Positions 4,501 to 62,330 of a DNA stretch of 64,000 nucleotides are shown here, piece by piece; within the stretch, counting starts at the first letter, position 1, and every line of letters starts with the position of its first letter. The notes below the pieces were generated by a model. That model was not told the DNA's origin and made no database searches. It saw only the letters and a program-made list of their open reading frames with translations. Where the stretch lies: NCBI GenBank assembly GCA_947561395.2, contig OX387184.1, forward strand, positions 30,494,766-30,558,765, written 5' to 3'. Position numbers and translations under genes: made by a program. The DNA is from Buxus sempervirens (lineage: Eukaryota; Streptophyta; Magnoliopsida; Buxales; Buxaceae).

Positions 4501-6612
4501 CTAAGAAAAACAAATTTGAACATATTATTATTATTCAGCTAAATTTATAACCATCACTTGCTTTAAATTAAATCCCTTCTCCTTTAATTTCCAGAAATGC
4601 TAAAATTACCCTTGCTCGCTACACCACCGCATTACCAGAACCCAATCATGGAACTTAAGTAACCAAATTTCCCATTTTAAACATTCATCATATTAAATCT
4701 TAAAATTTTACTCTAATTAACCTCCTTTTCTCAAATTCCTAAATTTTCCCTTAATAAATTAACAACCATAAAATTTAATTTTTAATTTTTATTAAAAATT
4801 CGAGATTTTACAAGGCCGGTCCATTAGGCACCCGATGGATACCCTCCTGATCCACTCGTCATAGTCCCCGACTACCATAAGTCCCTCTGCATCCTCCTAC
4901 TGATGAAACTAGTCAACATCGAACCCAGGCAGGAGGATGATAGGACCAACTGGAGGAGGACGAACTGGAATACGAGGTACACCAATGTGCTAATAGTACA
5001 GTCGCTCGCCTAAATACATAACCCTACCAAGTCTCCCAAGGAAACACTGGTAGGGCTGACGTCGGAGATCTCGATCAAAAGCATCTTGTACTATAAGCTC
5101 ACGAGCAACCCCGTCGTCCACATCCTCAAAGCGTACCAACAAGAGCTGCAATAAGAGAAGAATATCAGGTATAAACGAGGCATGAAAGGAAGAAACAAAA
5201 GGTAAAGGGTTAAGGAATTTTACATTAGAACGTCGGGAACGGTCCAAGTGAACCCGAGCAGAGCGGGGCTGACTCCTGTCTGCATCCCTATTAAGCACGG
5301 ACCACCGTATAGCTAAGGGGAACTCTGCAGCACCAGGCACAGGGGATGGAGGAAAATATGTCATTTAGGTATACATGAATATCTGGTGAAAGAGAAATCA
5401 GTCAGGGGTGGAAAGATAAAATTTTGGAATAAAATAAAGCAAATGCATTTAGTACCTGTAAGATCTGCCAAAAAAATCAGCAGCCAACACCATCTCTCCT
5501 CGGAGAGGCCATACCTCGGACGGCTCGGCATAATCCAACTAAGATAGTCCTGTATATAAGCCGACCCCATTCCAGCTGCCTAGTCTGGAGGAAGTCTCTC
5601 AGGGCATCCAAGAAGAGAGAACTAACCGCAGTCATGTCCTCCTAGAAGAAACAGCTCCCGAGCATCAGCAAGAAAATATGCCTGAATAGCAGTGCAAAGT
5701 CCTCGTCCTCCCTGGTAATTGTCGCATGCCTCCCACCAAAGCGATCAGTAAGGCTACAGCGTAGCCAGCTGATAGAGATCCGGCTGCTCCTCCCATCCCA
5801 GGCATCGTCGAGTAAGACCTCATATCCCAGGAGAAAGCTTATCTCCGCATCAGAAGGCCGATACATCACGATAGTCCGCGGCACCAAAGGGATGCCAGTG
5901 ATCATAACAAAATCAAAGGGACAAATCTCACGCTTGACATCTGGCAAATGGAAGGACTACGTATCAGGGAAATATCGCTCCATCATGGCATAAATAAGAG
6001 GGCGGTCAGCTCGGAATGATGGAATGAGGAGGAAGTGGTCGAAGCGGCACCGACTAAACTTTTGTCTAAGCGCAGGAGAAAGCGTCCGGACTAAATCGTG
6101 AAATCGCCCCCAGCTACCTCGTAGATGAGAGTGGGGGTATGGAAGTGCTACATCAGCCCTGACACACATCGCAGGATGGCGATCCAAGCCGCTAAGGAGC
6201 TCTTTGTCCTGAACAGAAGCTCTCAACTCTTTTGAGAAATCCAAGCGGAAATCTCGAGCAATACCTTCCTGAGCCTGGTCTTGAGCTCCATCTCTATCTC
6301 TGCCCCATCCTTGACCTCTAACACGGCCTCTCCCTCGGCCTCAGCCTCTACCTTGACCTCGATCAGGAGCCACGATGGGCTAAAATAGAAAGGAAAGAGA
6401 TAAAATGTTGTTTAAGGAAAAGAAGGGAAAGAGGGAGAAAAAGGAAATAATAAGTAGCCTACCTCGGCAGACCCCTCTCTAGAGCTCTCTCTAGAACCAT
6501 CCGACGGCTCAGATAAAGAGGCACTGGAATCAGCCTCGATCCTAGCTCGAGAAGAAGAAGGCTGATCAGCTGGATCAACCTCCTCCTCCACGCGGAAACG
6601 ACCTCTAGCCAT
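1515..6612 (-). pseudogene. Plant mobile domain (PMD)-like gene, decayed
   Basis: Minus-strand remains of a spliced PMD-like gene. From its 5' end: an acidic/serine-rich start (6612-6412, 'MARGRFRVEEEVDP'); an Arg-Gly-rich stretch with an in-frame TGA (about 6375-6250); then the conserved PMD core (6244-5642), where 'HFLLIPSFRADRPLIYAMME' is followed after a stop by 'FHLPDVKREICPFDFVMITG', matching the family pattern of a helix block plus 'FxLPxGExxxTLxDVxxLxGLP'. Further pieces lie at 5570-5361 and 5364-4990. After the solo LTR (1770-4812) the frame resumes, and the coiled-coil tail ends in 'VAQRDARIRE' and a stop near 1515. Several stops and frame changes mean no intact protein. PMD proteins are plant proteins often linked to transposons; their function here is unknown. 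It lies antisense, just upstream of the polypurine tract at 8263, as an extra antisense gene of a forward-strand Tat element. Confidence 0.6.
1770..4812 (-). mobile_element. Solo LTR (about 3.0 kb) with 5-bp target duplication
   Basis: Begins TGTAACGCCCC and ends GATTTTACA on the plus strand. The flanks are identical 5-bp direct repeats AGGCC (1765-1769 and 4813-4817), so this is a clean insertion reduced to a solo LTR by LTR-LTR recombination. Sense is the minus strand: a TATA-type box (CCTATAAATAGG on the minus strand) is at about 4351-4360, followed by a leader. A run of 'cctactcagggttt' repeats lies at about 2265-2375. It belongs to the same broad family as 37669-40952 (termini TGTAAAA...GGGGCGTTACA). 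It interrupts the PMD-like pseudogene. Confidence 0.85.
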
Positions 6613-8341: not shown

Positions 8342-8444
8342 GTAGCCGAAATTTAAATTCGGATAAAAGCTTTCCCTTTTGTAGCCAAAAATAGATTTCG
8401 AATACAAACGTGTATATTTGTATCCGACCTGAGTTGTCGGATAC
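8342..8444 (+). repeat. Three 25-bp palindromes on a 39-bp period (U3)
   Basis: Copies start at 8342, 8381 and 8420, exactly 39 bases apart. The last is perfect: GTATCCGAC, 7-base spacer, GTCGGATAC. The first two are degenerate. The array ends about 185 bases upstream of the TATA box. Confidence 0.8.
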
Positions 8445-8628: not shown

Positions 8629-8638
8629 CTATAAATAG
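8629..8638 (+). promoter_or_regulatory. LTR TATA box
   Basis: CTATAAATAG in the sense orientation of the LTR, followed by a CT-rich leader. Equivalent boxes on the minus strand are at 12164-12178 and about 59547-59557. Confidence 0.65.
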
Positions 8639-17729: not shown

Positions 17730-19688
17730 TCAGGCATAGTACAGTTTGACTGCATCTGCATTTATCGGCTTAGGAAAAACTGCCCCGTCCATCTCTTGTA
17801 GGATGAGTGCTCCTCTAGACAAGACTTTGTGGACTACGCATGGCCCTTCGTAGTTTGGCTTGAATTTCCCTCGGTTGTCCTCTTGATGGGGAAGGATCCG
17901 TTTCAACACTAGATCTCCTACTTTGAACTGTCGTGGCTTTACCTTCTTCTTATAGGCTCGCGCTACTCTTTGCTGGTAGAGTTGGCCATGACACAAAGCC
18001 TTGATCCTTTTCTCATCCAATATCTGCAACTGGTCAAATCGGGACTCTTCCCACTCGACATCACTGATCTCGGCTTCCTTTAGAATTCTGAGTGATGGGA
18101 TTTGTATTTCTACGGGGAGGACTGCTTCCATTCCACATACCAAGGAGAACGGGGTTGCCCCAGTCGATGTCCTGATCGACGTCCGATAGGCGTGTAGTGC
18201 ATAAGGTAACTTCTCGTGCCAGTCTCTGTAGGTGACCACCATTTTCTCGAGGATCTTCTTCAGATTCTTGTTGGCAGCCTCTACTACCCCGTTCATCTTG
18301 GGTCGGTATGCTATGGAGTTCAGATGTCTGATCTTCAGATCTGTACACATCTTTTCCATGTCCTTGTTGTTCAAATTCTTTGCATTGTCTGTGATGATCG
18401 CCTCAGGTACGCCATAGCGACAGACTATGTTGTTTCTGATAAACTTGAGCACATGGGATCCCTTCACATCTACAAAGGACATGGCTTCTACCCACTTGGT
18501 AAAGTAGTCGATTGCCACTAAGATGAACCAGTGCCCATTCGAAGCCTTCGGATGGACCTGGCCTATCATATCAATCCCCCAGATGGCGAACGGCCAAGGC
18601 GACGCCATGGAATACAGTGTGTTCGGTGGTGCATGGATATTGTCGGCATAGATTTGGCATAGTTGGCACTTTCTGACATGAGCGTAGCAGTCTGCCTCCA
18701 TGGTCATCCAGTAGTAACCCATCCTTAGGATCTTCTTGGCTAGGATATGCCCGTTCATGTGTGCCCCGTACAACCCGCCATGGACTTCCTCAATTAGCTT
18801 CTGAGCCTCGTCTTCTTTGACACATAGCAATAGCCAATCATTGTATGATTTTTTGTACACTCTACCTCCACTATAGAAAAATTGCCCTGCCAACCTCTGA
18901 ATGGTTCGCTTCTCTGCAGTTGTGGCACTTTCTGGCAAGGTCCTTTCCCTTAGATATCTCTCAATGTCCGCATACCAAGGTTCTCCTTCGAGAGCGAGTT
19001 TCTCAATGCTAAAACAATAGACGGGATAACGCCGAATCTCTATCCCCAAGGGTTGCACCCAGGTGTTATCAATGACGGTGGCCATTGACGCCAATGTTGC
19101 TAGCGCGTCTGCAAACCGATTCCCGTCACATGGCATGTAGTCAAAGGTCACACTTTCAAATTGCTTTTCTAATTCTTTGACCAACTCTTGGTATGGTACC
19201 AACTTTGCATCTCGGGTTCTCCAATCTCCCATAACTTGATGAATGATGAGACCTGAGTCACCGAACACCTTCAGCTCTTGTATGCGCATTTCAATTGCTG
19301 CCCGCAAACCTAACACACATGCCTCATACTCAGCCATGTTGCTAGTGCAATCGAACATAAGTTTTGCTGCTATTGGGTGGTGGACACCATCTGGGGAGAT
19401 TAGTACTGCTCCAATTCCTTTTCCATTTACATTGACTGCCCCATCAAAGAACATCTGCCGTTTGGTTTCTTCTGTATCCTTTGCAGATTCTGTGCACATC
19501 ACATCTTCGTCCGGGAAGTGAGTCAAGAGTGGTTTGTAATCAGGTAGGGGATGCTCTGCCAAGTGATCCGCCACTGCTTGCCCCTTTATCTCCTTTCTAG
19601 TTGTGTAGACGATATCATATTCTGATAAAAGCACTTGCCACTTGGCGACCCTACCCGTGGAGATCGGCTTTTCAAAAATATACTTCAA
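17730..19688 (-). pseudogene. pol: pol: RNase H end, archaeal-type RNase H, integrase
   Basis: A 652-residue open stretch. Residues 1-60 finish the RT-linked RNase H ('KYIFEKPISTGRVAKWQ'). About 75-205 is the second, archaeal-type RNase H ('FFDGAVNVNGKGIGAVLISP', 'AEYEACVLGLRAA', 'ADALATLAS'), a hallmark of the Tat lineage. About 270-345 is the integrase zinc domain (HxxxxxxxxH and CQLC). The integrase core shows GID, TDN and VVEAANK as its D, D, E residues. The C-terminal part ('LVLKRILPHQEDNRGKFKPNYEGP') resembles the family's DNA-binding end. It is in the same frame as all upstream pol segments, separated by the TAG at 19755-19757. The reading frame is intact here, but the full polyprotein is broken. 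Confidence 0.9.
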
Positions 19689-19754
19689 CGGATCGAGATT
19701 TGAAATCAGTAGGACTGTGTGACTTAGTAGATAGTGCCGAAGCTTCTGAGCTGC

Positions 19755-29403: not shown

Positions 29404-29541
29404 AAAAACTGGGTTTTTTTTGTTGAGCTCAGAATCACAAGGCTGGACCACACATGGCCAAAGAAGGGGGCTGATAAGGCAGCACTCAGGGTTGCTTTAG
29501 CTACGTCCGACTCATCCGTCGACGGCTTTGGCAAACTGAGA

Positions 29542-29980
29542 ATTCGGCTAGTAGTACCCAGACGCTCCGCAGCCAATATCCGATTCAATCACCGGCGGCT
29601 TTGGTGTCACAAAAAGGGGTAGGCTATGCCAGGACGCTCCTCCACCAATATCCGACTCATCCGTCGGCGGTTTCAGTGCCCTAAAGGATTCGGCTAGTAG
29701 TACCCGAACGCTCCACAGCCAATATCTGATTCAATCACCGGCGGCTTCGGTGTCACTAAATGGGGTAGGCTATGCCAGGACGCTCCTCCACCAATATCCG
29801 ACTCATCCGTCGGCGGTTTCGGTGCCCTAAAGGATTCGGCTAGTAGTACCCGGACGCTCCGCAGCCAATATCCGATTCAATCACCGGCGGCTTCGGTGTC
29901 ACTAAATTGGGTAGGCTATGCCAGGACGCTCCTCCACAAATATCCGACTCATCCGTCGGCGGTTTCGGTGCCCTAAAGAA
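29542..29980. repeat. Three 146-bp tandem repeats
   Basis: Units start at 29542, 29688 and 29834 ('attcggctagtagtaccc'). Each is itself a diverged dimer of about 73 bases, 'ccaatatccgattcaatcaccgg' type against 'ccaatatccgactcatccgtcgg' type. A partial upstream unit is visible from about 29500. It lies in the ORF1-gag spacer. Confidence 0.85.
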
Positions 29981-30312: not shown

Positions 30313-31707
30313 CTAGCTAGGTTGGTCATCATCATAGTGGGAGGACACGTCTTGCCTCCTCAAGGCGCGCTTACGTACCAATTCCAATTCATGTTGCAAG
30401 GCCGTATTGGACTGCCTACTCTCCCGTTCCGAATCCACGTAAGCTGAATGGATACGGGAGTGGGTCTCCTGCAGTTTGGCCACCCTGTCCCTATATGTGT
30501 TAGGGGGCGGAACTGGAATGTCGCTTGAAGCGACAGGCTGAAGAGGTGGGGGGCCGTCGTGGCCAAATTCCCGAGCTATCCACTGCTCGTAGTCTTGAAA
30601 GTGTAATTCGGTGAAGACGTCTTCTCGATATACGCAAATTGTCTTCCACTCCATTATCAGTTGCGTCCTTAGTCCTTTAGTGAGTGGACCAATCAAACTT
30701 CTCATGTCATCCTTGACTGGGATCCCCTGCGGTTTCCCAAACTGTCTCAGAACCCGAATCGGATAGTACGGCACGGCATGGGTGAGTCCTATCAGGGAAA
30801 GGCCCTCTCTTTTCTTGAAAGCTATGATGGGGGTGTAGGGGATATTGTATGTACCCCACCATCTAATGTCTGTTTCTCCCTTCAGGCGGAGAAAGTGGTT
30901 AAACCAATCCTCACGAGCGGGTAGGTCTGGTTTGATCTCTTTTTGAGCCAACCAATAGATGTTGTCGCCGGTTGCCTTGTAATATGCATTGACAGGTGAT
31001 GACACCATCAGGTGGTCTTGCAGCCAAATGTGGAGAAGGGGAGCGCACCCTTGAAACCTCCGAGTTCCGTTTTTGGACAAAGTCAGGGAATGGAACAGTT
31101 GAGCTAGGATCAGTGGCATGATTCGGTACCCCGCCCTGAGTTGATCCAAAATTTCCATGAGGGCCAAATTAATGGTGTCTCCCCTAGTTGGAAAGAAGAT
31201 TTGTGACAGAACCACAAGGGTGAAGGTGTCAAACCAAGCCCGGGGTCTTTCCTGTTTTTTGTTTCTCATTTTCTCAGCTAGGAATGTTTTAGAGACCCGA
31301 GTAAATGATTTGTCACCTCCTAAGGTCTGGAATTCTCCCCTTGAGAGGCCAAAGAAAACGCAAGCTTCATTCTTGTAACTTTCTTTGAGACTTGGCCTAG
31401 CGGGTTCTCCTAAGTCACGAAATCGGAGGAACAGGTCAAGTTCCTCAATTGTGGGAGTCAACTCGTAGATCCCGAATTGAAACACTGAAAGCTGGGGATC
31501 CCAGAAAAGCAAGACCGCTTGGATCATATCCCAGTTGATCGGTACATTTAACAGGGACAAAGTCTGTCCCATACGGTATTTGTGCTCCCATTCAATCTGC
31601 TCACTCCCTTGGAGCTGCCTTGTCCAAGAACGGATCCAGGGGGTATCCCAGGCGCACTTCTCTATTCTAGGGAAGCGGATTCTCTCAGATGAGGATGACG
31701 ATGCCAT
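30313..31707 (-). CDS. ORF1: DUF7745-like protein of the Tat/Ogre element
   Basis: An intact frame of 464 residues from 'MASSSSSERIRFPRIEKCAW'. An upstream in-frame Met at 31782 adds 25 residues, but the Ser-rich Met start is the better family match. The core shows 'LSLLNVPINWDMIQAVLLFW', 'FQFGIYELTPTIEELDLFLR' and 'RVLRQFGKPQGIP', the plant DUF7745 pattern, followed by a Gln/Arg-rich, probably coiled-coil tail ('YRDRVAKLQETHSRIHSAYV'). Extra ORFs upstream of gag are known in Ogre elements; their role is not established. It lies in the same orientation as gag-pol. A homologous segment occurs antisense near the 3' end of the other Tat element (61446-62330). Unlike gag-pol, I see no stop codons in it. 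Confidence 0.75.
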   Translation of the reverse strand: MASSSSSERIRFPRIEKCAWDTPWIRSWTRQLQGSEQIEWEHKYRMGQTLSLLNVPINWDMIQAVLLFWDPQLSVFQFGIYELTPTIEELDLFLRFRDLGEPARPSLKESYKNEACVFFGLSRGEFQTLGGDKSFTRVSKTFLAEKMRNKKQERPRAWFDTFTLVVLSQIFFPTRGDTINLALMEILDQLRAGYRIMPLILAQLFHSLTLSKNGTRRFQGCAPLLHIWLQDHLMVSSPVNAYYKATGDNIYWLAQKEIKPDLPAREDWFNHFLRLKGETDIRWWGTYNIPYTPIIAFKKREGLSLIGLTHAVPYYPIRVLRQFGKPQGIPVKDDMRSLIGPLTKGLRTQLIMEWKTICVYREDVFTELHFQDYEQWIAREFGHDGPPPLQPVASSDIPVPPPNTYRDRVAKLQETHSRIHSAYVDSERESRQSNTALQHELELVRKRALRRQDVSSHYDDDQPS

Positions 31708-31782
31708 GCCAACTATCCAATCGAAATTCCAAATCAGCTTAAGGTTCCACACCAAACTCTCAATTAGTCCTAAAGTATGCAT

Positions 31783-33220
31783 AATCGTAAGTAAAAGGGC
31801 TATCTACTTAGCAGTTCTAACATGCTTCACAGAATAAAGCAAAAGATAAAGCAATGCGGAATTTAACTTAGGCACACATGGTGTGTGGTCCTAAGGGTTG
31901 GCACCAGTGAAGGCGCGACTCCTAGACATACTTGTGTAGAGGAGCACACTCAAGTCCTGATCAGTCTTTCTATCTTTCATCTGTTCTTTCATCTGCTTCC
32001 GGTGTCGGACCACAGCAAAAATTACAACTTGCCATCGAGGGCGAAGGTTTACAAAAATATTTACAAAGCTGTAAAGAATTCATCCTTAAGGCTGTTGGGA
32101 GCCAAAAGGGAGGGTACAAATTGCCTTCCAAGCGGGTAGGCTAAAAATTCCTAGATCTAGGGTTTAGTGCCCTTGTTCTGATCTGGCCTGCTTTCATCTG
32201 TTTGTCTGATCTGGCCGGCTTTCATCTGCTCTAAAAGACCAATCTGGACTTAAAGTGCTCCCAGCGGACTCTAATGGGTCAAGACCCATAGCATACAGGA
32301 CTCAATGCATGGATCTGGGGTGGTTCCCCTGATCGAAGTTAGGTTAGCTTCCTAAATTAGGGCTGAGGTAGCCCAGAATCTAGGGTTTACTCGATTTTGT
32401 ATGAAAAAAGCGGGGGTTGCTGCCCCTAATGGACTCTGGATTTTACTTTAATTTTAGTATTCATCATTCAACTCTTACTCACCCTCACATGCTCAACGTA
32501 GAGTTCATTCAGAAACGTTAGGTGGGGAAGGATACCCAGCCCAAGACATAAGCCTACAAGGGTCTGGACCAGTACTGGATCCTCGCGTGCCACGGCAAGA
32601 AACCGGTGGTGCTAATGGACTCCAAAAAACTGGGGGGATGGGTTTACCCTGCTTTCCCCGGCAAGCCACGGGAGCGTAGGTGCTAATACCATCCCAAAGA
32701 TCAGTTTGTAGGAATCAGAAGGGTAGGCTGCTAGAGAGGTCTAAGTTTTGGTAAAGAAGTAGCAGTGTCCGATTCACTCATCTATTCAGGGTCGAATCAT
32801 CCACGTAGCCTCCCTCGTGCGTATCACCCCACGCAGTTCATCACATAGATGTGGAAAAAAAATCCAACCACGGTGTGGTGGCGTGCCTGTGTGTGCAGTT
32901 GGGCTGCGTGCTGTGTCTACACGGGTGAGTTTTGTCTGGATTTAGGTGATAAAGGAATCCTTACTGCTTCGTATAGTAAGGTGCAGAATTGGTACGTTTT
33001 ACGATGTCCTAGGAGAATCCCCAAGTAAGTGGAGGGTCACAGGGGACCACTTAAATTCCACTTGCCTTAGGCAATTATCGCGTCCTTGTGACAGGATTCC
33101 CCAGAACACGTAATTACGTGTATTCTGTGCCTTGTTAAACGGGGTAGCAAGAGTTCCTAAATGTCAACCAAATCCCTCTTAAGCTGACTCAGTCTAAACA
33201 GGGTCCTACTGGGCTGAGGG
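31783..33220 (-). other. 5' leader of the Tat/Ogre element
   Basis: Between the primer-binding site and ORF1. No supported gene. Confidence 0.55.
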
Positions 33221-34104: not shown

Positions 34105-34168
34105 TTTATCGGGCTTGGTGGCCGGATACGCATGGGCCCTAGATGATCCGGCCTGAGTTGCCGGATCA
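34105..34168. repeat. Two 25-bp palindromes, 39-bp period (LTR 3' part)
   Basis: The copy at 34144 is perfect (TGATCCGGC, CTGAGTT, GCCGGATCA). The copy at 34105 is degenerate (right arm GCCGGATAC). Start-to-start distance is 39. The matching pair in inverted orientation is at 41692/41731. Confidence 0.78.
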
Positions 34169-35639: not shown

Positions 35640-36075
35640 TGGATGGTTGCCTTGGGGAGATGAAAGATGTCTTGGGAGGTGAAAGGGTTGCTTGGGGAGA
35701 GGAAAGGTTTCTTGGGGAGAGGAAGGGTTGCTTGGGGAGAGGAAAGGTTGTATGGGGAGCTGAAGGGTTGCTTGGGGAGAGGAAAGGTTTCTTGGGGAGA
35801 GGAAAGGTTGCATGGGGAGCTGAAGGGTTGCTTGGGGAGAGGAAAGGTTGCATGGGGAGCTGAAGGGTTTCTTGGGGAGAGGAAAGGTTTCTTGGGAGGT
35901 AAAAGGTGTCTTGGGGAGAGGAAGGGTTGCTTGGGGAGAGGAATGGTTGCATGGGGAGCTGAAGGGTTTCTTGGGGAGAGGAAAGGTTTCTTGGGAGGTG
36001 AAAGGTGTCTTGGGGAGAGGAAGGGTTGCTTGGGGAGAGGAAAGGTTGCATGGGAGGTGAAATGGTTGCTTGGAG
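35640..36075 (+). repeat. Purine-rich minisatellite in the 5' LTR
   Basis: Same units as 14767-15236 with a different arrangement and count. Confidence 0.85.
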
Positions 36076-36735
36076 GTGACACATGTGAAGCACTCATTGG
36101 GTCCACGTGGCCTCCCATGTGGAGCTCCCATGTACACACGTGGCATCCCATGTGAGCACTCCTTGTGCACACGTGGCATCCCATGTGGCATCGCTAAAAT
36201 TCCCATAATGCCCTTAGCTTTGACTGCTCATATCTTTTCCATTCAGACTCCAATTTGAGCAAACTCAATTGCGTTGGAACCGTATCGAAGTCTTCTATTC
36301 ACTGACATTAAGCAAGATGGTCAATTCTCACCTGATCAAAAAGTCAAATTTTCACCCCTTAGGGTTTGACTTTCTATCTAGGGTTTGCATTCCCGGCACT
36401 TCCGGGAGCGCAAAAATGAGGTGCTTACACCTATGTCAGTGGATAGAAGGCTCCGATACGAGTCTAACGCAATTGAGTTTGCCCAAATCGGAGTTCGGAT
36501 GAAGGAGATATGAGCTGTCGAAGTTTCCGAGCAGCAAAACCAGAAACTGCACACGTGGCGCAGGAACTGCACACGTGGCAGCCAACGCAGCAAAATATCT
36601 CGGGGATTAAATCTCAAATATCCAAAAATCTCAGGGACTAAACCAAAATTCGCAGGGGGCAATCCGTAGATATCCAAAAGTGTCAAATCGGTCGAATCGG
36701 TCAAGTCGAAGGGCAAATCCGTAATTTTTTTATTT

Positions 36736-36980
36736 GTATCCGGTCAAATATGCCGGATACACATACCCTTGTGTATATCCGAACTCAAATATCGGATACA
36801 AAGATCTGCTCGGCAAGATTCGCGCCGATTCGCAGACAAATTCGCGGCGGCATTTAATTTTCGGATGATTATGTTTTGTATCCAGCATTAAAGGCCGGAT
36901 ACAAAGAAGCACCTGTGTAACCGGCCATAGAGGCTGGTTATGAAGAGGGCTTAGTGTATCCAGCCTGAGTTGCCGGATAC
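36736..36980 (+). repeat. Five 25-bp palindromes in two 39-bp-period blocks (U3)
   Basis: Starts at 36736, 36775, then 36878, 36917 and 36956. Examples are GTATCCGG...CCGGATAC (36736) and GTAACCGGC...GCTGGTTAT (36917), where the T-to-A change in the left arm is matched in the right arm. The last copy ends about ten bases before the TATA box. Confidence 0.82.
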
Positions 36981-36990
36981 ATTAAGTTTG

Positions 36991-37000
36991 CCTATAAAAG
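36991..37000 (+). promoter_or_regulatory. LTR TATA box
   Basis: CCTATAAAAG, followed by a CT-rich leader and a possible donor (ggGTAAGGC near 37282). Confidence 0.65.
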
Positions 37001-37668
37001 GCAAACAGCAACTCAGTTTCGGGGTTGGCTTCTTTTGGCTCTTCTCCAGCTCTCTTCTCCCATTTGCTCACCTCCGAATCCCATCTCTTCCCACTCCCTC
37101 AGCCCTTCACCACCTCCCAAGACCAATCCAAGTGCCTACCACCATTCTTCTCCTTCTCCTTCTTCACTTGCTCCTTACCAAGGATTGGAGCAAGAGCTGC
37201 TGTTGCCAAGGAAGAAGGCCACCAGCTGCTGTACCACCTCAAAGGAGTATCACCACCTCGCCTAGGAGTGCAAGAACCATTGGGTAAGGCTTCTCACCAC
37301 ATTGTATCATGCATATGTTAAAATTAGAATTTTCTGAAAATCTTCCCACATTTGTTTCCCTCATGGCATGAATTTGTTTCCATGAATGTTATGCATGCAT
37401 TTGGTGCTCTTCTCATGGTATGAAGCTACCACAAGTAGGAGGTTCACGTAGGGTCCCTTGGGAGTAGGAGAGCCCATCTTTCATGTCATTCTAGTCCACT
37501 ATTTTGAACTTTTTTTGAGGAGAATGTTCCTCCCAGTCTAATCTCATGTATCCCCCATATAACCCTCCTTCTCTTTCCCTTCTCTAAAGGTTTTATGTTG
37601 AGCAGTAAGCCTGGGTTTAGATTTTGCTAGATGTTCTTTTTCCTTTGTTTTCAGTTGTACATGTGTAG

Positions 37669-40600
37669 TGTAAAACCCCGAATTTTCACTAAATAAATAA
37701 ATAAAAATTTAATACGAATATTTGGAGTGTCAATGCATTTGTCAAAATAAATTGGGGATTTAATATAAAGGAATGATTTGCGGTACTTATAATTCGTTCG
37801 GGATGTATAACAGACTAATAATGACAAAGAGAATAAACATGGAAAATTTCGGAAGAAATTGAATGGGTAGATGTGAAAATATTAAGAGAAGGGTATTTCG
37901 GTCAATTCACATTAATTATCGGTAAATAATTAAATACATTAATTAAAATTTGTTATTAGACTTGAGAAATAATAATAGATTTAAATTGGGGTTTACATTG
38001 TCTATTAACCATGATATTTAAAGCTTAGTAATTGTAATAATGGCATATTGGTAGTTATACTTGATTTGAAACCTGAAGTCGAGGAGAGGAGAATTTTGTT
38101 GAAGGATATTAATTATAATTATAGATGATTACACTGATAGGGGAGATCTAGAGTTTGACGCAGATCTGACCGTTGGATCGCGAGATATCGAGTTAAGTAT
38201 GGATTAACGGTCCTTATTAAGTCTAATGGGTGGATGAGTATGGAACCTGATCCTAGGGAGATGCGTGGGATCAGGGAAGAATAAAATAGGGTTGAATAGT
38301 TTTAGTTGTATTCGTAGGATGTCTTGTGCGTTGAAGTTGGAGGCTGCGGCGGAAGAGAAGAAGAATGAGAGAGAGAAAGGGAGACCGAGAAGAAGGAGGA
38401 AGAGGGCATATCTTTGGTTTCTCACCGTTCCTGGAACGTCTCTTGCCTGCGAAGAGGAGAGGGAATCTCTGGTTGGAAGAAGAAAGGATCGTGAGCGGAC
38501 GGAGGTAGGTGGCACTTCGTTTTAACGATTTTTGTGTTTATGAGGTTATTCGATTCGATTGCATGATCTCCTATGTTGTAAATATGTATATATTGATTTA
38601 TATTAATTTATATGAAGGTTAGAAGCGATTAGAACATAAAAATTTGATGTTTAGAAACTCGGGTTGTCGTTTTAGATAGAGCGCTGACCTCGCCTGCACT
38701 TAGCGCTCCTCAGCGCTGTGCGGCGTTCGTTTAAAATTTTGAGCGCCCGAGATCGCCCTTTGACGGTCGCTCGGCGCTCATGTTATTTAAACCAAATCAC
38801 GCGTTTCCGAAAAGCACTACCGCTGAAGACCGCCAAACTCGTTACCCTAGCGATCCTAGGCGTTCGTTGTAAAACACAATTTTATGGTTGCAATCATTAC
38901 AAGCCTAATCTTTAATAACTTTTATTAAAATTTAGTCAATAACACTCATTTGTAATAACTCCCTTTTTACTTTATTTGACTTAAACTAAAACCTAAATAC
39001 TTCTATTTGTCTTTTTGACCATGACTAAACCTTAATAACTTTAAAAACACAAACCAATGTAAAATCATGCTATGTATGTGAATTCCTCCCCTATATCCAA
39101 ACTTGAATAATTTTTATATTATAACCGAATCTTAATTAAATTGTATTACCTTAAAAACCACTCACCTATACTGTTAAACAATTGAGTATTAATGTAATTA
39201 ATACATGATTAGAACCGCACTCTAGCGTACGTGTTATGCATCAAATTTCTTACTTAATTAAATATCTACCTGACACTAAATTGGGTTATCATGCGGAAGA
39301 TATTTTTATATACTGAACAAAATATTATGATTAATAAACTGGGGAACTGTTTAGAACCGGACTTTTAACATGAACCTAATATGTTATAAATAATAATGGA
39401 ATTGAGAATTATCTGTGTGATGGCTTGGTGGCCAGCTTTATTAATAACCCGCTTGGTGGCGGAGACCCTAACCTGCTTGGTGGCAGAGATACCCGCTTGG
39501 TGGCGGAGACCCTAACCCGCTTGGTGGCGGAGACCCTAACCTGCTTGGTGGCAGAGATACCCGCTTAGTGGCGGAGACCCTAACCTGCTTGGTGGCAGAG
39601 ATACCCGCTTGGTGGCGGAGACCCTAACCCGCTTGGTGGCGGAGACCCTAACCTGCTTGGTGGCAGAGATACCCGCTTGGTGGCGGAGACCCTAACCTGC
39701 TTGGTGGCAGAGATACCCGCTTGGTGGCGGAGACCCTAACCCGCTTGGTGGCGGAGACCCTAACCTGCTTGGTGGCAGAGATACCCGCTTGGTGGCGGAG
39801 ACCCAACCTGCTTGGTGGCAGAGATAACCCGCTTGGTGGCGGAGACATTACCTCCTGTGGGGCAGATGTATTTCCGACGGATTGCATCCTACAGGAGAGA
39901 TACCTCATGTGGGGGAGATGTGATTATGCGTGATTGCATCCCACATGGAGGATGGGTGTGTGAGTTACCACTGGAAGGTGAGGAAGCTATCTCCTATGGT
40001 AGAGGTAGATGCTAGGTGTTCACATCCTGCGGTAGAGTTATGCTGTCTCCTGCAGGGGGTACCTGTAGTCTTAGAGATGTGCATTCTCCTGCGGAGCTTG
40101 TGTGGATACTACGTGTTTGCGTTCTATGGTAGAGATAGGCTACTACCTAAAGGTTGGCTTTTATTACTGATATGATGATTGATTCTCAGGATGATGGATT
40201 GTTTATTTAAAAAGGAAATATTGAAATGCCATAACTGAATAGAATTGCTATGATTTAATGAGAACTGTTAAAATGGAATATTATGGAATCACGAATAAAA
40301 TGTGGAACTGCTCTTAAGAAGACACTACAGAAAATAAACCAGAAATCATGGGAATGTGAAATATGATACATTGTCCTTTAAATTGAAATGAAACACACAT
40401 GATTAACTTCTTTTAAATTCGGGCATTGATTAAATGTTTGTTTTATATTGAGATTATTCGTTTATCTTATTGACCGTAATTAGTCGTCTATTTTACCGAG
40501 CATGAAACCACTGTTATTTTCTGTATGTATAAACTGTTTCCTCATGCATGTGTTACCTACTGAGATAGTTGTATCTCACCCCTACTTCATATTCTACTTT

Positions 40601-40952
40601 TCAGGTCATCTTGGAGAGGACGCCACGGGTTAGACAGATAGTGGGTTGAAGTCTAGAAATTTCATATGAAAAGAGTAGGATAATTTTATATAGTTGTATT
40701 TATTTTATTGGAATCATAATAGATGATTTGGTAGGATATTAAGAGTTAGTTAATTTGTAGTTGCCTTCCATTTGATTAGTGAATGTAATCGGATGATTCA
40801 GCTTCTAATAAATGATTTAAGCTTCCTAGTACTCTGATAAATCTTAGTTCTTTATTTCCTTATATTTGAACTGACTGTAATGTACCACAAGTTAATGCCT
40901 TGATCCGAGTCAAAATGAAAAAAAAAAAGAGACCCGGATTCGGGGCGTTACA
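37669..40952 (+). mobile_element. Solo LTR (3,284 bp) with 5-bp target duplication
   Basis: Starts TGTAAAACCCCG and ends GGGGCGTTACA. Direct repeats TGTAG flank it at 37664-37668 and 40953-40957. It contains a minisatellite (39434-39850) and a 'tcatgtgttacctactgagatagttgtatctcacccc' type segment near its 3' end. It is nested in the forward Tat LTR. Confidence 0.9.
39434..39850 (+). repeat. Minisatellite inside the solo LTR
   Basis: Alternating 24-base (CTTGGTGGCGGAGACCCTAA + CCCG) and 20-base (CTTGGTGGCAGAGATACCCG) units. Frames through it on the minus strand give repetitive 'ATKRVRVS' peptides, which are artefacts. Confidence 0.9.
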
Positions 40953-41691
40953 TGTAGTGACATGCATGCTAGGATCGTATGAGCATGCCTTATTTGCTAC
41001 TCTTACATGCTTGGTAAATCTCATGCATGCAAGCTATTATCCTTTCCGGTTTTCTTACTAATCGCTTGATGTTGCTGGGGATGCTTGGTATGTTTGCCCC
41101 CATTGGGGAGATGTTTGAAGTATGGAAGCATGTTCCTTTCACCTCCCAACCCCTTTGCCATTTCTAAATGAAAGCATGACCCCCCACCTCTTATCCGCTG
41201 TTCCTACGTAGGCATGCATGCTCCCCGGTGTGCCTTCCAAAGCCTACCATTTCTTTCGATTGTTAATACCAGATTCTTTTCTACTGCGGATTCCTCATCT
41301 ACAGCATGTTAATGGCATTGATCTCCTGCTTGTATGCCATGTTCTGTATCCGGTTGTTGTTGAGTGCATATGTATGCACAAGTGAGCCATTTGTATGCTC
41401 CCCTCAACCCCAACACCCTCTCCCAATAATGTGTGCCGGCTGCTGCTGGGAGCAGTAGCAAAGCACTCATGGCTTGTTGCTATCCCAGCAGGTTCGGCAG
41501 CACCCCCAGGCACCCATGGCTAAGCCCTTTGCTTTAGCTAAGAAATCAAACGTGAAAGGCCAAATGAGGCTTCTCCTCCGCACCTGAACCAATGTGGGCC
41601 CATCCTGGGGCCCACACGGCTTGTAGAAAGGCCCCAAGGAACCCACAGATGCATCCCAACTGGCAAAACCCCAAAAAATGCAACTCTATGG

Positions 41692-41755
41692 TGATCCGGC
41701 AACTCAGGCCGGATCACCTACGGCCTATGTGTATCCGGCAACTAAGGCCGGATAC
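41692..41755. repeat. Two 25-bp palindromes, 39-bp period
   Basis: TGATCCGGC, AACTCAG, GCCGGATCA at 41692 and GTATCCGGC, AACTAAG, GCCGGATAC at 41731. Both are perfect. The start distance is 39. Confidence 0.85.
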
Positions 41756-42806
41756 ATGATAAAAAGGCCATTTTCATGTCGTCTTGATCCTTGACCGAAT
41801 TTTATGATGATTTTTACTAAACCAAGCAAACCAGCAGGGTTCCCGGGCCACCTGGGAACCCAATTTGAGACTTGGACCATGATCCAACTTGGAAACACTA
41901 GTGGGCCTTCCAACGGGGCCCACCAAACCCGGTAAACCCAAAATCATGCAAATGAATAAGTTAAGTAAAATGAACCAATTGAATCGGGTGAGCCAAACTC
42001 AATGCAGCCCACCCAAACCTTGTTCTGTGGATTAATGATTGAAATTGCATGGTTTGGCCGATACCAAGGGCAAGGGCCTATCGGGCCCGCCAAAGCCCAC
42101 CAATCAACCAAGCTAGGGTGTAAACCCTGGACTTCAAAAGAACTGGGCTTTCAAGCCCAAGTCTGGATCACGGGCCCCAAGCCCAGTGACCAGCCCATTA
42201 TGTCAAAAATAAATAAAGATAAATTAAAACATTCTTTTGGCAACCAACATGGGGGCCCACTCAGGGCCCGCAAACTAATGCAGACTAACTTATTGCATGA
42301 AAGTCACTAAATCTCCAACTTAAACAAACCAAGTAAAAACAAATCACCTCACCTAAACCCAAAGGGCCTCTTAGGCTTAGACAGAGGCCCACATGGGATA
42401 TGTGGGCTTAATCAGGCCCACCAGGGACACCGTAGGCCTTCCAACGGGGCCCACCCCATCAGACTCAGTACATTTAAATAAGCAAGATAAAATCAATTAA
42501 AGGGACCCACACCATTCAGGTGGTCCCGCCAAGACTTAACCAATTTACATATCGGACTAGGAATCGGGTGAAAAAAAAACCAAGGTAAAGTTGACTCAAA
42601 CCAGGGAACCCACGGGACCCGTCATCCGACGGGGTGGACTAGGGTGTCTACGGACTTCCCCAGACCGCAACCGAGAACCGACTTAGAATCTCAAGCCACA
42701 GACCAAAGCCCAAAATAGACTAACTTAGGCACCCAGGTGTCCGCCTGCACCCCATCAGGCGGTGGCGACTCCGAATTTCCCATGCCGCGTTCCCGACGCT
42801 CGCACA

Positions 42807-43873
42807 GAAATGACCCACAATTAAGCATCTAAAACATACGATAATCAATGCAGTTCCTCCAGTTTAAAAGGGTTTGCTACTTGCCTGATTATGTAAACTC
42901 ATTCTTTCGAAAATCTGATTATCCACCAATTTTCTGGGCTTGTTCGCACCATCTTAGACTTCTCCAAATCCAATCTCCACCGTTCAGATTGTAGTTCTAT
43001 GAGTGAAGAACATAACCTCAAAATTTCAGGTCGAACAAATGGTTGGATGTCCCTAGCTCTCTGTTCGAACTTGGCTGGTTGGCCATCTGCAGCACTCCCC
43101 TTTCTTCAATAAACCCTATTTTCTTTTCTCAATTCTTCCTTCTATTTTCTCCAGCTCTTATGCACGAATTTCTCCCTTCTCTTTCCCCTTATTTTGAGCT
43201 CATTTGAAAACCCTAAACTCCTTTTAAAACCTCTCTTTTATAGGCTTAATAATAAGCAACCCTAATAGGTTATCTCCACTTAAGTTTTTAAAACTCTTTC
43301 CTCCTTTACCTCTTCTTCCTAATTATTTCCCTTAACTTTACTCTTAAAGATTATTCTCATAATTTTCGCGCAAATTATCACCCTAAATTTTAAATTTTAA
43401 TTAAACACTTCATATCCTCCCATATTACTTAATTTAAGGACCCTAATTATACATAATTACAATTAAGACCTTATTCCTTCTTTTAAACCTTAAATTCATT
43501 ATTTTAAATCTAACTAAACTAAAATTTGATCTAGTTTAGTTTATTAACTTAATAATTAATTATTTTATTACTTTCATGAATTTGACCAATTGGAAATGAC
43601 CAAAATACCCTTTTCTTTTATTTCCTTACTTAATCTTTAAATTTCTTCACAATTCCTCAAATATTATTATTCTCATTGTTTCTCTTCATAATTTGAAGTT
43701 TTGAAACTTAAATATTAGTTCTTCATATTCTCCTTTATAATATAAATTAGATTCCTATACTTGGTTCATATTTTTCCTTTCTAATTTATCTTCACTTCTA
43801 AATCTCTCTAATTTATTCATTAATTATTTATTTATTGATTTCTTTTATTTTAGGAAAATCCAGGGTTTTGCAA
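42807..43873 (-). mobile_element. LTR fragment, antisense
   Basis: On the minus strand it starts near 43873 with TGCAAAACCCTGG, has a TATA box GCCTATAAAAGAG near 43231-43245 and a CT-rich leader, and breaks off at the end of the forward Tat LTR. The left boundary is inferred from where the Tat LTR ends. Confidence 0.45.
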
Positions 43874-56809: not shown

Positions 56810-57650
56810 TGTGAAACCCCAGATTTCTATACCATTAGCACACCCTAAACAGAGTAATTTATTGTGTAGGTGAAGTTGGAGAAGCCCAGACTTGAAGTTA
56901 GCCAAGTGGCTAAGTCCAGGCTTATCAGAAACGGATAAATGTGAGCAATCCCAAGATTTGCTAAATCAATTTAATTGTTGAGACGGAAAATAGCTAAGTG
57001 GCGGTTTGTATTGTGTGTAATAGGTGGAGAAAGGCAAAGCTGGAATTTTCCTTAGCGCATTGGAGAAATTTGGTTAAGTGTCAAAGAAAGGGGTTTTATC
57101 CCCACATGATTGAAGCACTCTCCTCTCCCCCATCTTCTCTTCCTTCACTCTCCTCTTCTCCTACCATTCTTCATCTTCTTCTCCAAATTCTCTCCCCTTC
57201 ATCACACTCCCTTTTCTCTTTTAAGTTCATTGGAGAGACCCTTGCAAGAAAAGGAAGAACACAAGGAGATTTTCGTTTGGAGGTTTTTGAAGGAAGCAAC
57301 CAAGGAAGCAAGGGTGCTGTTCGTGGGTTTCCCTAGGAGCCAGAAGACTTTCTAGCTTGATTAGAAGAGGTAAGCAACACCACCCTAACCTAGTTTTCTC
57401 TTTTTCCCAATTTTCGTATGCAAAATGTATATTTTTGGGGTTTGGGTATCAATTTGCTTATCCTTGCAAATAGGAGGGATTTTTGTTGGGGGTTTTGTAA
57501 GAAATAGGTAACCACACATGCTAGAAACAATTTAGAGACCAAAAAACATCGAAAAGAGTGAGATTTGAAAAACCCTAGAAGTTAGGAAAAATCGGATTTT
57601 TGCGAACCTGAGAAATCGTGAGGGCGCCCGAACCGCCGCTCGAGCGACTG
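56810..57650 (+). mobile_element. LTR fragment, sense, 5' part
   Basis: Starts TGTGAAACCCCAG, has a CT-rich leader (57110-57230) and a possible donor (GAGGTAAGCAAC near 57368). It ends in a CG-rich 'gcgcccgaaccgcc' segment resembling 38690-38790 of the solo LTR. It is interrupted at 57651 by the Tat LTR. Confidence 0.55.
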
Positions 57651-59546
57651 TGAGACACGGGAAAAAATCACCCACCGTCAACACACGGGGCTCAACTTGA
57701 AGTTTGGGAGAGTCGCCACCATTCAGAATTTTGAGGTGAGAATGGACACCAAAGGATCAAAAATAAGCAAAAAAGAGCCAAAAGAAACATTCTAGGATAA
57801 AAATAACCCTACTTGAAAATCAAATCCAGAGATGGGTAAGGGGATTAGATTATGAACGGGGGAAGGTGTTAGGCACCCCCATTCATCCACACAAAGTGGT
57901 TGCCAAGTGTATGTTCATGCATAAAGAAAGTAAGAAAGCTTGCTAAAAATCATGAAAAATCTTGAAAAAGGATCAATGTATGATATTTCCACATGAAGAT
58001 CTAAATGGATTCCAGATCCTCTCTGATGTCAATATCATTTCTGAAATGTCATAAAAGGATAAAAATCCAAGCAAAAGAATTCACAAAACCAAGTTGAGGC
58101 AAATCCGGGAAATTTGGTGAAAGTAATGCTATTTGTCTTGAAATCATTCAAATCCAATTTTAAATCAAATCAAACCAAATCCATTTGAAAGATTATAGTA
58201 AATAAGAGTCTCATGCAAAATTTCACTTCATTCCAATAAAAATCCTAGGAGTAATGCTCCTTTAAAGTTGCTGTTGGGGATAATCAAAAAGTGATAAGTG
58301 GGCAACTTTGGGAAATTGCATAGAACAATCCACTCCATAAAAATCCACGAAATTTGGTGTGATTGAAGTCTGTATGGCCATATTTCAAAAGAAACTAGCC
58401 TCATACAAAAATCCCTTCGGATGTGCCTCGGGTGGTCTCCCGAACAGGCCCCGAAGATCACAGATTTACCCAGAAAAATGCCATTAAGCAGTTCTGATTA
58501 AATCGGCTACCAATAATTCAAATGGAGTCACAAAATTATGAAACCAACTGGATTTGAAAATAGACTCATAAAGGAGTGCCCAGAAATAAAAATCATTTGA
58601 ATCGGACTTAAAACGAACACATGGCGCTCCGTCGAAGTGACAAGTTCTATATTTGAACCTGAACTGTCCACTCAACTTCGACAGAGAGGTGTCAAACATC
58701 CGTTCGATAGAAATTTATGAAATTTGGTGGACATAAACTAGACAGCCTCACCTTTCCCATGGTTCTAGAATCGCTCCAAAATTCATCCGGACGATGAAGT
58801 TATGAGCGTCCGAAGTAAGGGTACAGTTGCTGTCAAGCTAAGCCACTTTTGAAGAAAACCAAATCCGAAAATTGATAAAAATGTGTGATCCGTGCAAGAT
58901 GAACACAAATACTTTAAAAATCATTCAAAGACATTCCAGGATTGATTGAGGCCATTTATTTCAGATTTATCACAATAAATTCAATAAACCCAAAATAGGA
59001 GCCTATCCCGCCAAAATGGTACTATGTATGTGCAAGTGTGGAAAACAATATAAGATCAATAGAACAACATAGCATGCATACATTTTCATCAAAATAAGGT
59101 TCTAAAACAACCTAGGGTTCCGTTCCATTATCGTTTCCCTCTGTTCTCTCTCCCCGTTAAACACGGTTCTTCAAGATAATCAAGGGTACTTTGAATATGA
59201 AACGGTTTACAATCAATCAAAAGGCTTTATGCTACATAGGTTCTAGCACTAGGGTCAATCCCCAGTCTCGTTTCTCCTAGATCCCGCCTCCACGTTTTAC
59301 GGCTAGGGGGAGTCTCGAGATACTTTGAGCCGGGGAAGGATTTTTACACACAAAGAAGGCCTTATTCTACATAAAGGTAGAAGAAGAGATCTAGATCTAG
59401 GAATGTAAAAACAGAAAATAAATGAAAAGTTTGAGGCTTACCTGGGTTCTGGACGCGATCCCGCAGCGGTTTTCTTCTTCTCTTGGAGTTCTTTTTGGCG
59501 AGAATTCAAAACAAGAGTTAATGGCCATTTGCCTAAGGAGGAGCCT

Positions 59547-59557
59547 CCTATTTATAG
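59547..59557 (-). promoter_or_regulatory. LTR TATA box (minus strand)
   Basis: CCTATAAATAGG on the minus strand, about 165 bases downstream (sense) of the palindrome array. Confidence 0.65.
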
Positions 59558-59722
59558 GCAAAGGTTAGGGTTATGGTTGGTGAGAATGGTAGACACAACA
59601 TAATGTCTATAGCCACCAACCTTAACCCTAAGGCTATTTCCGAGATTTCCCTTCATTTAATGAAGGACATGATGGTAAAAGTGAAAATCTCTCGGAAAAC
59701 CCTAATTTTGAGCAAAACTAAT

Positions 59723-59864
59723 GTATCCGGCATATCAGGCCGGATACACAAGGGTCTTAATGTATCCGGTATATAATACCGGATATACTAAGGATTGCTT
59801 GTATCCGGTATCTTTCACCGGATACAAAGAAGAACACTTGTATCCGGCCTGAGTTGCCGAATAT
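59723..59864. repeat. Four 25-bp palindromes, exact 39-bp period (U3)
   Basis: Starts 59723, 59762, 59801, 59840. Arms are GTATCCGGC/GCCGGATAC, GTATCCGGT/ACCGGATAT, GTATCCGGT/ACCGGATAC and GTATCCGGC/GCCGAATAT. The 7-base centres and 14-base spacers vary freely. The C-to-T change at the arm's ninth position is matched by G-to-A on the other side. Confidence 0.9.
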
Positions 59865-60438
59865 AAGGAAAAAAGCCTTTTTTTCGAATTTTAACACAGG
59901 CAATACTTATTTACATGTAATATCGTTTAAGTAAATGTCCTCGTATTTTTTAATCTCCATTTACTTAAGATATTACATGTAAATAAGCAAACAGCCCCCC
60001 CCCCATTTGAATCCATTAAAAATAGTTCCAGACCCAAATTCCAAGTGAATAAAAAGTCAACTTTCCAGTTCTAGGCAAAATTCTGATTTTTCAGGTCTGG
60101 AAAAAAGGTTCAATATGTTAAAACCAAGGTATTCGTCAAGATTTAAAATCTCAAAAAATTCATTTATGCAATAACATTGCTAAAAACCTGATTACCGGGA
60201 AAAATTATTTGGAAATCTTGCTTTAAAAAATATTTCATTTTCTGGGGGCAAAAGTCAACAAAATTCCACCGGAAAAAGTTTGACTTTGCACAAAAGAAGA
60301 ATTTGGGCCTTTTCCTTTACGGCTTTGGATTCAAATGGGTTAAGTATCTCAAACCCAATGCAAAGAATTGAAAATTTCAATAAAATATTTCTCTCCTTCA
60401 AGATTTATCAAAAATCGTGCAATTTTGGGGTGTCTACA

Positions 60439-60453
60439 ACTGCCCCTCTTTGC
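60439..60453 (-). other. Polypurine tract of the second Tat element
   Basis: GCAAAGAGGGGCAGT on the minus strand, directly before LTR start TGTAGACACCCC. Confidence 0.8.
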
Positions 60454-61252: not shown

Positions 61253-61440
61253 ATGATCCTCTTTTTTCCTCTTTTTTTTCTTCTTTTTTTCTTTTCCTTT
61301 TTCTTCTCTTTTTTTTTCCTTTTCTTTTCTCTTTTTTTTTTCTTTTTTTTCCTTTTTTTCTTTTTCTCTTTTTCCTCTTTTTTTTTTTTTTTTTTTTTGC
61401 TTTTTTTTTTTTACAATATACTGAAATATCCCTTCTCCTT
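61253..61440 (+). repeat. Long C/T tract before an antisense splice acceptor
   Basis: About 170 bases almost purely T with scattered C, ending near TTTGCAG at 61439-61445. It fits an oversized polypyrimidine tract for the acceptor of the DUF7745-like exon that starts at 61446. Confidence 0.7.
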
Positions 61441-61445
61441 TGCAG

Positions 61446-62330
61446 CTCTGGTTACTTGACCACCTGAGTCAGATTGAGGAGATCAATTGACATTTCTTCC
61501 CAAGCTTGAAGGTTCCCATCTTGATGAGCAACCGGGGGTGTCCTAACACTCCAGGAGGTAAACAGGGCTAGTTTACTTTCTTCCAGGATGATCAAGTGAG
61601 GTGGCCTGGTACTTATCAGCCCAATGCAGAGACCGTGATCAGCTTCAGAGATCGTAATTTTCTGATTCTGGCTGGCCTGAGACATGCGGTGCTCTACCTT
61701 CCTTTGCGGGTCCTTCGTCAGTTCAGAGCGACCCAGGGGATTATAATCCCAAGTGGGTATGAAGATCATCCTGGTCCACTTTCTCCAGCTACCATGAAGC
61801 TGAATGCCTGGTTGATGAGGTAGTGGTCTTATGTTCGCTTTATGAGGGGCCCCGTCTTCTCAGAGTCCCATGTGAAGGACTATCTCTTCTGGATTAGGAA
61901 GCAGATACAGAGTCAGGCTCCATTACCTGAAGACTCTCCTGCAGTTTTAGCTCCCACTTACGAGGATATCTTGGAGTCTGAAAGAGCTTCTCACAGGCGC
62001 CTTCAGCAGATCTGGGTGCGAGAGGCCCAGGAGCTTAGGATACGGGGCCTTGATATGGAAAGGCAACTTGCACAGCAGGTATCTCGCCGTCTGGATATGG
62101 AGAAGCAACTTGAGGAACATAGGCAGGCCCACTGTCTTGAAGTCCGAGCACTGCGGCAGAAGCATCAGGATGCTTTAGCCAACCTTAGGAGTATGAGGAT
62201 TAGGCAGACTCTTTCAGATGATGTCATTTCCTTCTTGAGTGATCCCGCTGCAGAGGAGGCTTCTGGAGTTATCGCAGCTCAGGCAGCTCGGATTCGGGAG
62301 CTTGAAGAGCGACTAGGAGACAGAGATTAG
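61446..62330 (+). pseudogene. DUF7745-like exon, antisense in the second Tat element
   Basis: A single plus-strand frame from the AG at 61445 to the TAG stop near 62330, with three internal stops (61488, about 61572, about 61821). Readable parts are 'LWLLDHLSQIEEIN', 'HFFPSLKVPILMSNRGCPNT', 'VRWPGTYQPNAETVISFRDR' and 'AVLYLPLRVLRQFRATQGI', then a long coiled coil ('MEKQLEEHRQAHCLEVRALR', 'IRELEERLGDRD'). The Trp...Arg-Val-Leu-Arg-Gln-Phe block aligns with the C-terminal half of ORF1 (30313-31707). It lies between integrase and 3' LTR but on the opposite strand to the element. No upstream exon was recognised. Confidence 0.75.

Follow-up and report, generated by a model that had tools for sequence, protein, structure and literature searches.

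The U3 boxes of the Tnt1 and Retrolyc1 retrotransposons are arranged in tandem and have been tested by experiment. Tat/Ogre-like Ty3 elements are defined by a second RNase H domain between the reverse transcriptase-RNase H and the integrase and by an additional open reading frame beside gag-pol. Regulatory regions of LTRs are described as consisting, in many cases, of arrayed repeats that can be palindromic, and the palindromes of maize Sireviruses have been linked to small RNAs and proposed as hairpin sources (PMC10760457). The closest system known for the arrays described here is the palindromic repeat (RM) of the LTRs of Sireviruses, which are Ty1/copia elements. Several copies are present per LTR, predominantly in its upper half and upstream of the TATA box (Bousios et al. 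2010, section on the RM in PMC2829016). According to the same section, palindromes with a CGG-CCG core are found in 12 of 13 elements and form CpG-rich clusters, and the RM was called Sirevirus-specific among the elements compared.

The window, i.e. the whole 64,000-nucleotide stretch of Buxus sempervirens DNA analysed here, was described in an initial annotation as containing sixteen copies of a 9-7-9 palindrome at steps of 39 bases. The motif is indeed present at all sixteen start coordinates and the step within every block is exactly 39 bp, while the palindromic character holds for 15 of the units, with at least 6 of 9 arm positions paired (nine in six units, eight in four, seven in four and six in the unit at 8381). 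The remaining unit at 34105 pairs at 4 of 9 positions and is not palindromic. The interval of 103 bp from 36775 to 36878 is a gap between two blocks, which amounts to 104 bp (29 cases) or 103 bp (2 cases) in other copies of the same family. A location 10 to 190 bases upstream of a TATA box had also been proposed, in agreement with distances of 13 bp for the block at 36736, 167 bp for that at 59723 and 186 bp for that at 8342. The four-unit array starting at 59723 lies about 575 bp inside an LTR that runs from 60438 to 57649 on the minus strand, as its polypurine side is placed at 60439 and beyond, and its promoter and TATA box are therefore located below 59723.

Table 1. Positions of the arrays and associated features, in window coordinates.
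Feature	Position	Strand	Basis
Palindrome starts, by block	8342, 8381, 8420; 34105, 34144; 36736, 36775, 36878, 36917, 36956; 41692, 41731; 59723, 59762, 59801, 59840		
Family A LTR, TGTAGACACC...GTCTCACA, 2.79 kb, polypurine (PPT) side at 60439+	57649..60438	-	
Four-unit 39-bp palindrome array, family A, U3 of 3' LTR	59723..59864	-	motif check, locus comparison
TATAAAT box, 167 bp downstream of family A array	59550..59556	-	
B/C-type LTR, U3 array and downstream C array with inserted DNA between	36430..42807	+	inferred from L007, L008
Family B U3 array, blocks of 2 + 3 units, 103 bp start-to-start across gap	36736..36980	+	
TATA box, 13 bp past last B palindrome	36993..36999	+	
Downstream C array, two units, arms TGATCCGGC and GTATCCGGC	41692..41755	+	
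Downstream C array in 5' LTR of 22-kb element, one unit decayed (4/9)	34105..34168	-	
20-bp direct-repeat array (CTTGGGGAGAGG) in the U3 place where relatives have B palindromes	35651..36073	-	
22-kb Tat/Ogre-like element, gag + pol + DUF7745/PMD ORF	~14100-36429	-	
Diverged D-type array, three units	8342..8444	+	
TATA box, 186 bp downstream of D array	8630..8636	+	

The U3 arrays belong to LTRs of Tat/Ogre-like Ty3 elements, where they precede the TATA box. The window and twenty 10-kb segments of contig 1 surrounding exact sites yielded 44 arrays or single units, and the ends of the LTRs were obtained by locus-to-locus comparison. LTRs of family A are up to about 2.8 kb long. Identical 5-bp flanks are found in six of the twelve family A copies examined, the LTR of the window not being one of these six, and the other six border internal element sequence, are incomplete or are without matching flanks. 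In 21 of 22 arrays of family A, a TATAAAT box is found 139-168 bp downstream, and in family B the TATA box is positioned 12-13 bp past the end of the last palindrome in all six cases of this first sample. The B and C pieces form one single LTR in loci L007 and L008, where the U3 array of 2+3 units is accompanied by a second array, which lies past the TATA box at a distance of about 0.9 kb in L007 and 1.4 kb in L008. The blocks at 34105 and 41692 correspond to this second, downstream array, and none of seven such arrays has a TATA box within 300 bp. In the window, the 5' side of the B/C-type LTR has apparently been cut by the 22-kb element. The C part (window 41692-42410; L007 5600-6100) harbors several other G+C-rich inverted repeats in addition to the array with TGATCCGGC arms, and a compound 20/24-bp tandem repeat (TAACCCGCTTGGTGGCGGAGAC) is located at 39445-39846, in the DNA that separates the B part of the interrupted LTR from its C part.

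The 22-kb element shows a Retrotrans_gag match and a Ty3_capsid match below the cutoff. Within 17730-19754 the domains RT_RNaseH, RVT_3, H2C2 and rve are found, so that a second RNase H-like domain (RVT_3) precedes the integrase as in Tat/Ogre elements; the order RNase H, RVT_3, integrase sets the element apart from the Ty1/copia Sireviruses. The additional reading frame is found upstream of gag and encodes a 496-residue protein (30313-31803) with matches to DUF7745 (5e-25) and PMD (1e-20). A tandem repeat of 146 bp with 3.2 copies occupies 29506-29978 in the same element. The domain order was established for the 22-kb element, and the family A element was compared with it at nucleotide level near the integrase end (67.6%). 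Between its pol and 3' LTR, a broken relative of the DUF7745/PMD frame is located in antisense orientation (61440-62117; 29% identity over 240 columns, tblastn E 1.8e-20). This relative runs on into an open frame of 168 residues (61824-62330; 61440-62330 in total), for which Pfam gives no match. Both element types thus carry this protein family, and a 10-kb stretch analysed at the 5' end of the family A element contains no relative. The 22-kb element's own LTR contains neither U3 palindromes nor a TATAWAW match.

Throughout the 676.5-Mb genome the exact motif GTATCCGGC-N7-GCCGGATAC occurs at 6434 sites and its reversed control at none, which excludes chance for a motif of 18 fixed bases. If the inner gap is allowed to vary from 0 to 17, 36 sites are added (6470), i.e. 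99.4% have a gap of 7. The facing arms of neighbouring units, GCCGGATAC-N(0-17)-GTATCCGGC, are found at 2096 sites genome-wide, and the spacer is 14 bp in all 50 of these among the matches listed. Judged from these counts with a variable gap, both the inner gap of 7 and the spacer of 14 look fixed. Searching viral contigs with the neighbouring arms gave two matches, each an isolated half-site pair within G+C-rich sequence, with no array in the 200 bases inspected of each, and the whole window gave no Rfam match at the gathering threshold.

Further copies were selected by their flanks. For family B, 39 copies were picked because they resemble the flank that starts at the TATA box (78-95% identity), and 38 of them carry an array, the exception being L112. 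When weak units lying one period from strong ones are included, a procedure that favours the period and was also applied in the 44-array, D and E scans, 109 spacings are 39 bp besides the block gaps given above; the others are 24 (three), 38 (two) and eight single values. The TATA box is again found at 12-13 bp in 37 of the 38 array-bearing copies, with none called in L101. In L101 the B-type array is expanded by 63-bp sub-unit repeats (39+24), an example of a change in unit number. For family D, 39 copies were picked by the downstream flank (81-94%); 21 of them carry arrays of 1-6 units, in which 52 of 54 spacings are 39 bp, one is 40 and one is 60. The remaining 18 copies constitute a sister subfamily, E (L054-L085; e.g. 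L068 207-309), with a different array, ACCGCAT-N5-ATGCGGT, at the same place. Its 64 units, 61 of which pass without period stepping (chance mean 1.8 in shuffles), are distributed such that every one of the 18 copies has at least two, and all 46 spacings are 28 bp. If the gap is left free from 0 to 20, ACCGCAT/ATGCGGT gives 753 exact sites vs 9 for the reversed control. As the same place holds 39-bp palindromes, 28-bp palindromes or 20-bp direct repeats, the U3 appears to act as a slot for periodic arrays of different kinds.

In 26 family B copies with the regular 39-104-39-39 layout, the mean pairwise difference is 0.107 for the arms, 0.199 for the centres and 0.267 for the spacers (permutation p 1e-4 for arms against centres and spacers). 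It rises to 0.275 towards the TATA box and is 0.081 in the 79-bp stretch between the blocks (window 36800-36877), which probably holds further regulatory sites, since it is better conserved than the arms. The TATA-proximal palindrome (36956-36980) is the best conserved of the five B units, including its 7-bp centre CTGAGTT, as if this centre were also read. Unit 2 often persists as a poor palindrome, with 5/9 in many copies. Among 22 arrays of families A and D, most of them from loci picked for an exact palindrome, the differences are 0.146 for the arms, 0.029 for the core TATC/GATA, 0.302 for the centres and 0.347 for the spacers, vs 0.421 in the upstream and 0.186 in the downstream flank; without 24 exact units the arms differ by 0.183 and the centres by 0.378. 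From the conserved stretch between the B blocks and the downstream flank in A/D it follows that the arms are not the sole constrained part. Indels other than multiples of 39 amount to 0.21 per 100 bp within the A/D arrays, 1.18 downstream and 2.90 upstream.

The initial annotation had named two grounds for abandoning its reading, namely disappearance of the period in other copies of the family and a simple recent tandem duplication. The 39-bp step is kept in the flank-picked copies of B and D, and the units do not show the likeness over their full length that a recent duplication would give; they diverge more in centres and spacers than in the arms, which outlast both. Unit-specific centres are common to subfamilies, so that the units have to be old. 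Furthermore, comparison of three family A LTRs with three B/C-type LTRs, that of the 22-kb element included, gives plus-strand matches (E 0.1) on the arrays which extend at most about 60 bp beside them; one weak exception concerns an A LTR and the LTR of the 22-kb element (E 0.023). In 21 young family A copies the arms (0.0225) show no sign of constraint relative to centres (0.0153) and spacers (0.0159), and selection would therefore have to act on active lineages and not on dead copies. This is what dead copies are expected to show, yet it lends no support to the explanation preferred below.

Within a unit, the two arms are coupled. The 152 units of 41 arrays contain 159 arm mismatches vs 199.5 +/- 7.7 after the right arms are shuffled within each array (5000 shuffles), counts that are not independent events because the copies are related. 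The difference is larger between arms that face each other over the 14-bp spacer than between the two arms of one unit (0.156 vs 0.120). At arm position 9, 6434 sites genome-wide are C/G, 5920 are T/A and 2966 are mixed, vs 7651 mixed sites expected under independence. The coupling is weaker in subfamily E (97 vs 108.1, p 0.015).

The explanation we favour, with a probability of about 0.6, is that the U3 array is a promoter module that can be exchanged and that is bound by a dimeric transcription factor, probably encoded by the host. From the position, spacing and conservation of the arrays, the coupling of their arms and the different arrays of sister subfamilies we infer protein binding, a dimeric state, activation rather than repression and a host origin of the factor. 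The U3 arrays would thus act as promoter or enhancer modules of Tat/Ogre-like Ty3 LTR retrotransposons, with each 25-bp gapped palindrome (half-site approximately TATCCGR, inner gap 7) as the putative target of a DNA-binding dimer, probably of a host transcription factor. The 39-bp step would let adjacent dimers cooperate on the downstream TATA box. Selection on active elements would preserve the arms and their spacing but leave centres and spacers free to drift, and the entire module could disappear or give way to a different array, such as the 7-5-7 palindromes at 28 bp. MYB-related or similar factors are presumably candidates in view of the GATA/GGATA-type core, and we would also name LOB-domain proteins. 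The initial annotation had offered a binding platform for a dimeric protein or units kept for folding. The former draws support from the fixed gap and step, the near-invariant half-site core, the coupling within units, the kept place before the TATA box and the sister subfamily having another palindrome array with a fixed geometry of its own, the binding itself being putative. Against it count the poorly palindromic unit 2 of family B, the weak coupling in subfamily E, the further constrained stretches outside the arms, the second array of the B/C LTRs behind the TATA box, where an upstream enhancer is unexpected, and a symmetry that goes beyond simple binding of a TATCCG core. Changes at arm positions 8-9 are symmetric, both from unit to unit and from family to family, and in A-type arrays the seven bases flanking the arms pair at 0.50-0.80 vs 0.28 in random sequence, as do the centres of units 1 and 4 at 0.65 (random 0.28-0.30). 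The symmetry thus reaches somewhat past the nine-base arms, which fits a longer symmetric binding site or else a component of pairing or template switching.

This extended symmetry also speaks for folding, in which pairing itself would be kept in RNA hairpins or DNA cruciforms; the hairpins might, for instance, give rise to small RNAs like those attracted by the maize Sirevirus palindromes (PMC10760457). The 156-nt array folds strongly (-76 kcal/mol and z -11.2 for RNA; z -10.3 for DNA), but strong folding is inherent in palindromes. G.U pairs show no excess over A.C (22 vs 34, p 0.14), pairing of the spacers across the array (0.33 and 0.41) is to be compared with 0.28 +/- 0.06 in random sequence, and hairpins need neither a fixed loop of 7 nor a step of 39. 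The TATC/GATA core is near-invariant although pairing would permit double changes. Units kept for folding are the less favoured half of the original proposal, with the pairing of the flanking bases on their side and the G.U result against them, and we regard this explanation as unlikely. Mutation without selection could maintain the symmetry of the arms, by template switching during reverse transcription, and set the 39-bp step, by tandem duplication. Units are indeed gained and lost as whole 39-bp steps, as seen from the varying unit number of the D copies and from L009 and L023 with one unit fewer, and L101 is expanded by its sub-repeats. The age of the units, the preservation of the arms over centres and spacers, and the likeness of the arms in A and B/C LTRs, which match practically just in their arrays, make this account quite improbable.

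VANC anti-silencing proteins bind motifs of VANDAL elements, and by analogy the palindromes might be bound by a protein of the element itself, for instance the DUF7745/PMD-like protein, whose family is represented in both element types. The host PMD proteins MAIN and MAIL1 have been linked to a promoter motif (PMC7156037). However, nothing connects the protein to the palindromes, and the 22-kb element, which encodes it in one open frame, has a decayed C array and lacks U3 palindromes. The two relatives are just 29% alike between element types whose arrays share arms, and the 10-kb stretch at the 5' end of the family A element is devoid of one, all of which renders an element-encoded binder very improbable.

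Returning to the preferred explanation of a host factor acting on a promoter array, an extension is conceivable, which we put forward tentatively and consider rather doubtful in its entirety: arrays swapped in an exchangeable U3 slot (9-7-9 at 39 bp, 7-5-7 at 28 bp) might serve different dimeric factors binding as cooperative dimers, and the same CCGG-type host factor might have been reached by Sireviruses through convergence. At 3.71 and 2.67 turns, the two steps are 11 bp apart, close to one helical turn, and in this extended reading adjacent dimers would therefore keep the same rotational offset. Should the preferred explanation be true, high-copy plant retrotransposons would be driven by rigid, swappable arrays of dimer sites, and motif, gap and step would provide a concrete means of identifying the factor in control of thousands of LTR copies and of testing whether one regulator has recruited Ty3 and Ty1 lineages alike. 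As the consensus half-site contains a CpG, the array could also represent a methylation off-switch of the element, so that methylation at this position could silence it at the very same array.

With respect to known systems, a literature search covering titles and the starts of abstracts, subscription papers being mostly outside, gave no 39-bp palindrome period in Tat LTRs among the papers listed, and one with the letters of the motif gave no plant LTR paper among the matches listed. Tnt1 of tobacco and Retrolyc1 of tomato resemble the present arrays in having LTR regulatory boxes, one of them symmetric, in a region variable between relatives (PMC2829016), but they are copia elements with other sequences, and the arrays described here are known from sequence alone. 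Tandem repeats in the 3' UTR of Tat-lineage elements, which seed satellites, share lineage and tandem repetition (cited in PMC10794571). The present arrays are located in the U3 promoter instead, with the C arrays behind the TATA box, and their arms are conserved across families. The passages on Retrosat2 in PMC3485330 mention no palindromes. The resemblance to the Sirevirus RM is closer. The half-sites TATCCGR...YCGGATA contain the CGG-CCG core, the Citrus Sirevirus RM AATCCGGCTWRCCGGATT is close to the half-site (section on the RM in PMC2829016), and multiple copies upstream of the TATA box are found here in family B (37/38) and family A (21/22), though in none of the C arrays (0/7). The observed/expected ratio of CpG is 1.18-1.21 in the U3 arrays, compared with 0.60 for one family A LTR outside its array and 0.56 for one B/C LTR taken as a whole. 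The statement of the initial annotation that no such plant LTR element has been described has thus to be narrowed: CGG-CCG palindromes upstream of the TATA box are known from Sireviruses, whereas the section on the RM in PMC2829016 gives no fixed step. The arrays of the present elements differ from these known relatives in belonging to the Tat lineage of Ty3/gypsy and not to copia, in their 25-bp palindromes with a 7-bp gap on a rigid 39-bp step, and in the alternative 28-bp array of a sister subfamily.
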